Translations under genes and position numbers: made by a program
Origin: a bacterium
GTDB lineage: Bacteria; Myxococcota_A; UBA9160; UBA4427
Assembly (NCBI GenBank): GCA_024742285.1
Contig: JANSYR010000007.1
Span: 1 to 64,000, forward strand
DNA length: 64,000 nucleotides
Reading direction: 5' to 3'
In this document: positions 53,286 through 54,495 of the stretch, one piece after another
Layout: each line of letters opens with the position of its first letter
Position numbering within the stretch: the stretch's first letter is position 1
Notes under the pieces: generated by a model
Databases searched by the model: none
The model's input: the letters and a program-made list of their open reading frames with translations, nothing else
What the model was told of the DNA's origin: nothing

Positions 53286-53312
53286 GCTGAGCGTCCGCAG
53301 CGCCTGCTCAGC
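53286..53312 (-). terminator. Hairpin overlapping the end of the Sua5-type gene
   Basis: GCTGAGC (53286-53292) pairs with GCTCAGC (53306-53312) over a 13-nt loop and overlaps the stop codon of the Sua5-type gene. It probably ends the peroxiredoxin-Sua5 transcript before the WS/DGAT gene. Confidence 0.45.
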
Positions 53313-53922
53313 CCGGAAGCGGGCCCTTGCCCTCCCGCGTGACCTCGAGCTCACCGCCCGCCGCCCGCAGCATCGTCGACGGCTCGGGCCACATGGGTCC
53401 GCCGTCGATCAGCACGTCCACGCGCCCTCGGAAGATCCGCTCGAGCTCGTCCGGATCCTCGAGGGCCGGCTCGTCGTCGCCGGAGGTGAGCGAGCCCGTC
53501 ACGATCGGCTCTCCCAGGTCGTCGACCAACATCCGACACAGCGCCGAGTCGGGCATGCGCAGTCCGATCTCGCCGAAGCGGTTGCGCATGTCGCGGGGCA
53601 CGTCGGTGCTCGCCTCGAGCACGATCGTGTAGGCGCCCGGGAGGATGCGGCGGACGGTGCGGAACACACCCGTCTCCATGATCGCGTAGTGGCCGAAGTC
53701 CGAGAGCTCGTTCACGAGCATCGAGAGCGGCTTCTTCGACCGTTCGTCGTGCCCCTTGAGAGTCCGGATCGTGCCGATCGCCTTGCGGCTCGAGAGCGCA
53801 CAGCCGAACGCGTATCCCGTATCGGAGGGATACAGCACGACGCGGTCGCGACCGAGCGCATCGATCGCGGGTTTCAGCTTGCGCGGGGCCGGGCGCTCGG
53901 GATCGACACGGAGGCGTTCCAT
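53308..53922 (-). CDS. L-threonylcarbamoyladenylate synthase family (YrdC/YciO/Sua5)
   Basis: This 204-aa single-domain YrdC-fold protein has RVVLYPSDTGYAFGC, IRTLKGHDERSKKPLSMLV (key part KKPLSMLV), and TGSLTSGDDEPALEDP. Family members make threonylcarbamoyl-AMP for the t6A tRNA modification (TsaC/Sua5), whereas the YciO subgroup has a different role. The ILPGAYTIVLEAS segment matches both. The K-G-H-D-E-R-S-K-K-P form resembles YciO more than TsaC. It lies 12 bp after the selenoprotein peroxiredoxin gene and is cotranscribed with it. Confidence 0.85.
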   Translation of the reverse strand: MERLRVDPERPAPRKLKPAIDALGRDRVVLYPSDTGYAFGCALSSRKAIGTIRTLKGHDERSKKPLSMLVNELSDFGHYAIMETGVFRTVRRILPGAYTIVLEASTDVPRDMRNRFGEIGLRMPDSALCRMLVDDLGEPIVTGSLTSGDDEPALEDPDELERIFRGRVDVLIDGGPMWPEPSTMLRAAGGELEVTREGKGPLPG

Positions 53923-53934
53923 TCCCGCCTCGGC

Positions 53935-54495
53935 TCAGGGCGCGACCGAGGAGGACAGCTTCGGGAAGCCGAGGGCTTCGAGCGTCTCGACGATGTCCTG
54001 CCCGGCGGTCGCCGGATTCACGTTCTTGTCGATCTTGCGGAGGACGCCGTCGCCGTCGATGTAGAAGGTCCAGCGCCTGGCATAGAGCCCGCCGAACCCG
54101 ATCACACCGAAGCGCTGCGCGGTCTCGCCGTCGGGATCCGACAGCACCAGCGTCTTCGTCTTCATCGCCTCCGCGAACTCCGCGTTCTTCTCTGCCGTGT
54201 CGAGAGAGACATAGAGCACCTCGACGTCGAACTCTGCGAGTCGTTCGGCACTGTCACGCAGCGCCGCGAGTTCGGTCGTTCAACCCGGGGTGAACGCCTT
54301 GGGGAACCAGGCCACCACGACGCCCTTCTTGCGTGCGGTCTCGCCGACGTAGTCGGTGGAGGCGAAGGATCGACCTTCGCCCTCGAAGCGGAATTCCGGC
54401 GCCGGCTCCCCGACCTTCGGTGCGCCGAAGGCGGATTGGGTCGCCAGGACGAGGAGGAGGGCCAACGACCCGCCGAGGAGTGTTCGAAAACGCAT
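53935..54495 (-). CDS. Exported selenocysteine peroxiredoxin (in-frame TGA)
   Basis: Read through TGA 54282-54280, this is a 186-aa AhpC/TSA-type peroxiredoxin. The TGA is codon 72 in PKAFTPGU, exactly the peroxidatic position of PxxxTxxC, and is followed by [21 protein letters not shown]. The Arg segment [12 protein letters not shown] is in place. A signal peptide ([18 protein letters not shown], cut near AFG-A) implies export to the periplasm. There is no Cys anywhere in the mature protein, so it would be a one-Sec enzyme needing an outside reductant. A bSECIS-like hairpin follows the TGA. Selenium peroxiredoxins are known, and this one is unusual for export. Confidence 0.85.
54229..54282 (-). 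promoter_or_regulatory. bSECIS-like hairpin of the peroxiredoxin selenoprotein
   Basis: On the minus strand after the TGA, GAACTC (54273-54268) pairs with GAGTTC (54234-54229). Inside, CGGCGCT (54266-54260) pairs with AGTGCCG (54252-54246) with one G-T wobble. The loop GCGTGAC begins 20 nt after the TGA with G first, matching the bacterial SECIS consensus and the 19-nt spacing of the CMD gene's element. Confidence 0.75.

Follow-up and report, generated by a model that had tools for sequence, protein, structure and literature searches.

A described example of selenocysteine (Sec)-containing peroxiredoxins (Prx) is PrxU of Eubacterium acidaminophilum, which belongs to the TxxU type within COG1225. 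In passages retrieved from two metagenomic surveys, TxxU peroxiredoxins rank second in abundance among the known selenoprotein families of the Sargasso Sea with 43 genes (PMC1088965) and amount to 253 sequences in the GOS data (PMC2398784), and sections of two reviews count Sec-containing Prx (TxxU) among the established selenoprotein families of bacteria (PMC9312934, PMC13188914). Neither export nor the absence of other or resolving cysteines is mentioned in those passages on known Sec peroxiredoxins (PrxU, marine metagenome set) that were found by term search. A literature term search for exported or periplasmic Sec peroxiredoxins, in a collection with few subscription papers, returned nothing relevant. 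A peroxide pathway of the bacterial envelope, ScsB-TlpA-PprX, was reported for Caulobacter crescentus; according to the passages available, an envelope peroxiredoxin receives its electrons there from the cytoplasm through a membrane protein of DsbD type and a TlpA-like one (PMC5403849).

The gene analyzed here lies in a window of 64,000 nucleotides, the whole stretch of DNA under study, and shares with the known Sec Prx a PxxxTxxU motif whose peroxidatic residue is Sec. Selenium peroxidases of such kind are known, and some sequences of the branch to which the window gene belongs may well sit in the Sargasso Sea and GOS sets; the exported, Cys-free branch as such appears to be undescribed. An earlier note on this DNA had assigned Sec peroxiredoxins to anaerobes and regarded them as normally cytoplasmic, neither of which is supported. 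The organism looks aerobic from its gene content, because two heme-copper oxidases in the window genome indicate aerobic respiration, TxxU peroxiredoxins abound in ocean metagenomes, and exported Sec forms were found in Myxococcota, Gammaproteobacteria, Acidobacteriota and Planctomycetota.

The gene, its TGA codon and the SECIS hairpin

The Sec-containing Prx gene occupies positions 53935..54495, as the earlier coordinates had it, lies on the minus strand (ATG at 54495-54493, stop codon TGA at 53937-53935) and was translated with TGA as U. Codon 72 (54280..54282, minus strand) is an in-frame TGA at the peroxidatic position, surrounded by the motif F-P-K-A-F-T-P-G-(TGA)-T-T-E-L, and it is followed by 114 more codons that end in a normal Prx C-terminus, so that both the placement of TGA in P-x-x-x-T-x-x-(TGA) and the intact C terminus claimed before are borne out by the translation. 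The product of 186 aa ([35 protein letters not shown]...[28 protein letters not shown]) does not contain any Cys. Standard annotation overlooks the gene because translation table 11 truncates it at the TGA.

The product carries the AhpC/TSA domain (PF00578, 5.6e-26), and its AlphaFold2 model (mean pLDDT 88.7, pTM 0.82) matches Prx structures, with Bcp1 of Sulfolobus solfataricus (3drn) as best PDB match by sequence (1.4e-18) as well as by Foldseek on the model (8.2e-14). The best NCBIfam model is PRK09437 (BCP), and the PrxU model NF040737 reaches only 45.8 of 270 bits. PrxQ/BCP is closest by sequence, fold and NCBIfam model, from which the window protein differs in having Sec in place of the Cys, in lacking a Cys at both +4 and +5, and in a predicted export signal and a PRK09437 score (71.9 of 140 bits) under the curated cut-off of this subfamily equivalog; 'PrxQ/BCP-like' is therefore the safe name. 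Its segment PKAFTPGU conforms to the pattern PxxxT/SxxC with Sec aligned to the Cys of homologues, and the conserved Arg R141 is invariant in the homologue alignment.

Homologues at E <= 1e-30 were present in 40 of 148 relatives, of which 34 carry an in-frame TGA at the corresponding position; of the remaining six, all five that were read had Cys. In the copies read, the column holds TGA or Cys, and not the random residues which the earlier note had named as speaking against Sec in close homologues. Nor are selB and selC missing: the window genome (6.55 Mb, 95% complete) encodes selA (522.9 bits), selB (283.9 bits) and selD (259.4 bits), all above their cut-offs, and a tRNA-Sec (67.8 bits) whose anticodon is TCA according to ARAGORN. 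selA was detected in 33 of the 34 TGA-carrying genomes versus three of the six with non-TGA copies only (Fisher p = 0.008, kinship uncorrected), and the sole TGA-carrying genome without it is 85% complete. Past the TGA, purifying selection acts on the reading frame, with dN/dS near 0.11: there are 27 synonymous to 9 nonsynonymous changes against the sister genome L024 (dN/dS 0.106) and 37 to 14 against the sister genome L025 (dN/dS 0.109).

Downstream of the TGA a SECIS hairpin with a 7-bp stem and the loop CGTGA was recognized by pairing and compensatory changes at 54247..54265 (minus strand). Counted from the TGA, nucleotides 18-24 pair with nucleotides 30-36 around a 5-nt loop, CGTGA or CGGGA, in an alignment of 32 sequences from close relatives. 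Overall 93.8% of the cells were paired and 16 cells were changed on both sides, values of which neither was reached in any of 500 shuffles, and slid hairpin structures scored below the actual pairing. With 20 sequences from other phyla added (52 sequences, four phyla), compensatory changes were found at three pairs, and the loop-closing pair had turned from G-C to C-G in four sequences. The 32 Sec forms always use AGY for Ser and never CGC for Arg; Cys forms keeping the Arg use CGC, and their hairpin is broken. A search of the window against Rfam at gathering threshold gave no match, which is a weak test for a bacterial SECIS.

Because a TGA in the redox column with Cys homologues, its recurrence in 34 genomes, a covarying downstream hairpin, purifying selection and the Sec machinery (selA, selB, selC, selD) coincide as in bacterial selenoproteins, the TGA, judged by sequence, is selenocysteine and the gene a genuine selenoprotein gene with UGA recoding. 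This agrees with the first description of Sec as the peroxidatic residue and with the expectation that its column would be Cys elsewhere, as it is in the homologues read without TGA.

Predicted export and the residue at +4

Residues 1-24 (54424..54495, minus strand) constitute a predicted Sec-type signal peptide with cleavage after AFG. Its sequence is [26 protein letters not shown], with A-x-G in positions -3/-1 and with n-, h- and c-regions discernible by eye and under a simple hydropathy rule. By the same rule a signal peptide precedes the Prx in 73 of 88 family rows; the hydrophobic N-terminus is kept among relatives while its sequence varies, and this region shows the highest nonsynonymous share in the comparison with L024. 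By this rule the signal peptide of the earlier note is supported and conserved, and the product would be exported to the periplasm. A planctomycete Sec form (L120) has a lipobox-like N-terminus (LASACAKDD), and some family members may be lipoproteins.

Codon 76 (54268..54270, minus strand), at +4 from Sec, encodes Leu, where the wider exported family has Cys. The family was sampled by a scan with one genome per species, which yielded 560 relatives, of which the best 80 were read. The 89 non-redundant rows comprised 27 with Sec and Cys at +4, 27 with Cys and Cys at +4, 32 with Sec without Cys at +4 and three with Cys without it (Leu). All 54 rows of the other branches have the +4 Cys, and all 35 rows of the window type have Leu, Ala, Ile or Met instead; for the 32 Sec members of the window branch these are Leu in 28, Ala in two, Ile in one and Met in one. 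No other Cys occurs in the mature chain of 31 of these 32 non-redundant members, and the claim of a mature chain without Cys stands for the product (0 Cys) and for nearly all Sec members of its branch. Without a resolving Cys the product falls among the 1-Cys (1-Sec) peroxiredoxins. The +4 Cys of the wider family, located one helix turn past the active site, is plausibly the resolving residue by position; a typical BCP places that Cys at +5, e.g., L004 of the same genome (CTKEAC).

The window branch consists essentially of Myxococcota (older records name them 'Deltaproteobacteria'), with many marine representatives, and the wider exported family, characterized by U/C-T-x-x-C, of Gammaproteobacteria, Acidobacteriota and Planctomycetota. 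With the CTxxC/UTxxC peroxiredoxins exported in the latter three groups, and with an exported Cys paralogue in the window genome itself (L002, CTLEC), it shares full-length homology (40-55% identity), the signal peptide and AWFPKAFT-x-G-[U/C], but those retain the +4 Cys where the window branch has Leu. In the maximum-likelihood tree the window sequence groups with six Sec forms of Myxococcota (100/99). Sec and Cys have been exchanged several times on this tree, with seven changes, at least four of which are required by branches with good support. Forms without the +4 Cys cost two changes, yet a single clade was not rejected (AU p = 0.106); there may have been one event or more, in either direction. 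A contig titled Klebsiella pneumoniae (L106) with a Sec form of the exported family is probably a mislabelled metagenome bin.

Further Sec genes were encountered in the window genome and its relatives. In the Gammaproteobacteria L094 and L124, the gene of the exported Sec Prx comes directly after selA-selB; in L117 and L127 these sel genes also lie shortly upstream, with selB no more than about 1.2 kb away. Profile searches confirmed selA/selB for L124 and L127. The window genome encodes a cytoplasmic BCP-type Sec Prx (L003, G000:C11:31541-31834) with the motif UTIESC, i.e., Sec and a Cys at +5, and together with the exported form it would therefore have Sec peroxidases in both compartments. 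A second Sec Prx of this genome (L006, G000:C12:28172-28549; STPGUTRQG) has neither a signal peptide nor a Cys at +4/+5. L005 (G000:C1:59128-60057) combines a Prx-like domain with WUPPC (UxxC) and, in frame behind it, a DsbD N-terminal domain (PF11412), and is possibly a Sec thiol-disulfide relay; many relatives have DsbD_N matches within open frames of about 333-339 aa that appear to be fusions of this type.

Electron supply and alternative functions

Taken as a whole, the locus probably encodes a PrxQ/BCP-like 1-Sec selenoperoxidase of the periplasm that uses an external thiol reductant, with an exported thioredoxin-like protein held reduced by DsbD as its likeliest donor. The selenol of Sec72 would attack the hydroperoxide and become a selenenic acid, Sec would then be joined to an external thiol as a selenenyl sulfide, from which a further thiol would free the selenol, as in a 1-Cys-Prx or GPx-like cycle. 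Since the chain has no Cys, Sec would have to be resolved by an outside thiol, and a bond inside one subunit or from one subunit to another would be possible only as a diselenide. The periplasmic one-Sec peroxidase in need of an outside donor that the earlier note had envisaged is thus supported in its single Sec and, if the protein is a peroxidase, in its outside reductant; the periplasmic site, the peroxidase activity and the identity of the donor are predictions, and the activity could be lost or changed.

On contig C9 a DsbD homologue of 805 aa (TM domain C9:58153-58791) is encoded beside an exported TlpA/ResA-like CxxC protein, and this putative operon is the best candidate for the donor. 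The search for a periplasmic thiol donor in the genome, proposed beforehand, yielded this pair as a candidate, albeit not near the Prx gene. As in ScsB-TlpA-PprX, DsbD and TlpA-like genes are at hand, here side by side, but in the window genome they are unlinked to the Prx gene, PprX is not described as a selenoprotein in the passages available (PMC5403849), and the two systems are likened by description only. DsbD occurs in 23 of the 34 relatives with the Sec form versus 16 of 50 without the gene, a loose association. The co-occurrence of DsbD_N with the Sec form (Fisher p = 0.002 for long proteins) is confounded by kinship, and many matches represent the separate UxxC-DsbD_N fusion; 11 of the 34 genomes with the Sec form have no recognised full-length DsbD_N match.

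Only 12 nt downstream of the Prx gene follows a Sua5/YciO/YrdC-family gene (53308..53922, minus strand; PF01300, 4.4e-36), which is probably co-transcribed and has no evident functional link; upstream and divergent lies an acyl-CoA dehydrogenase gene. Seven genomes of the genus share this arrangement; outside the genus it is not conserved, and it therefore carries little information on function. A dedicated donor beside the gene was rejected, as only genus-level synteny with Sua5/YciO, acyl-CoA dehydrogenase and other genes was found, and the plasmid-borne relatives searched for a donor context were ordinary peroxiredoxins only.

Instead of the DsbD/TlpA pathway, small thiols or sulfide from the periplasm or the medium might reduce the peroxidase. 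Small thiols are commonly used by GPx-like 1-Sec enzymes, and the association with DsbD is neither complete across the relatives nor free of kinship effects. We nevertheless regard this route as rather unlikely, as there was no sign here of a periplasmic small-thiol pool in the lineage and a DsbD-TlpA pair is encoded. A missing resolving Cys and the lack of a dedicated reductase nearby would also fit an exported selenoprotein whose main role is not that of a peroxidase and which serves as a redox sensor or thiol transferase on the Prx fold, for instance by passing oxidation to partners as a selenenyl sulfide; this is improbable, since the peroxide-binding motif P-x-x-x-T-x-x-U is complete and, like the conserved R141, kept as in peroxidases. 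Still less probable is an uncleaved N-terminal anchor tethering the enzyme to the membrane and facing the periplasm, for although cleavage motifs are poor in some relatives, the window gene and most relatives have A-x-G or A-x-A just ahead of the Prx fold. That the TGA is a true stop, stems from a sequencing error or marks a decaying gene, as a table 11 stop codon in a draft assembly might suggest, is ruled out for practical purposes by the identical TGA column in 34 separate genomes, purifying selection past it, the covarying hairpin and the complete Sec machinery.

The PrxQ/BCP-like selenoperoxidase would thus have a selenol as its sole redox group, in an enzyme that an aerobic bacterium apparently sends into its oxidising periplasm. 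We give an even chance to the broader proposition that the window branch is a conserved branch of exported peroxidases without the resolving-type Cys of the family, whose only redox residue, Sec, is recharged wholly by a periplasmic reducing pathway; the envelope of aerobic marine Myxococcota would then house a GPx-like selenium cycle. With CTxxC, UTxxC, UTxxL and CTxxL, a natural series exists within one exported family, which makes it testable what benefit Sec brings to a peroxidase, why the resolving Cys can be absent and how selenoenzymes are supplied with electrons in the envelope.
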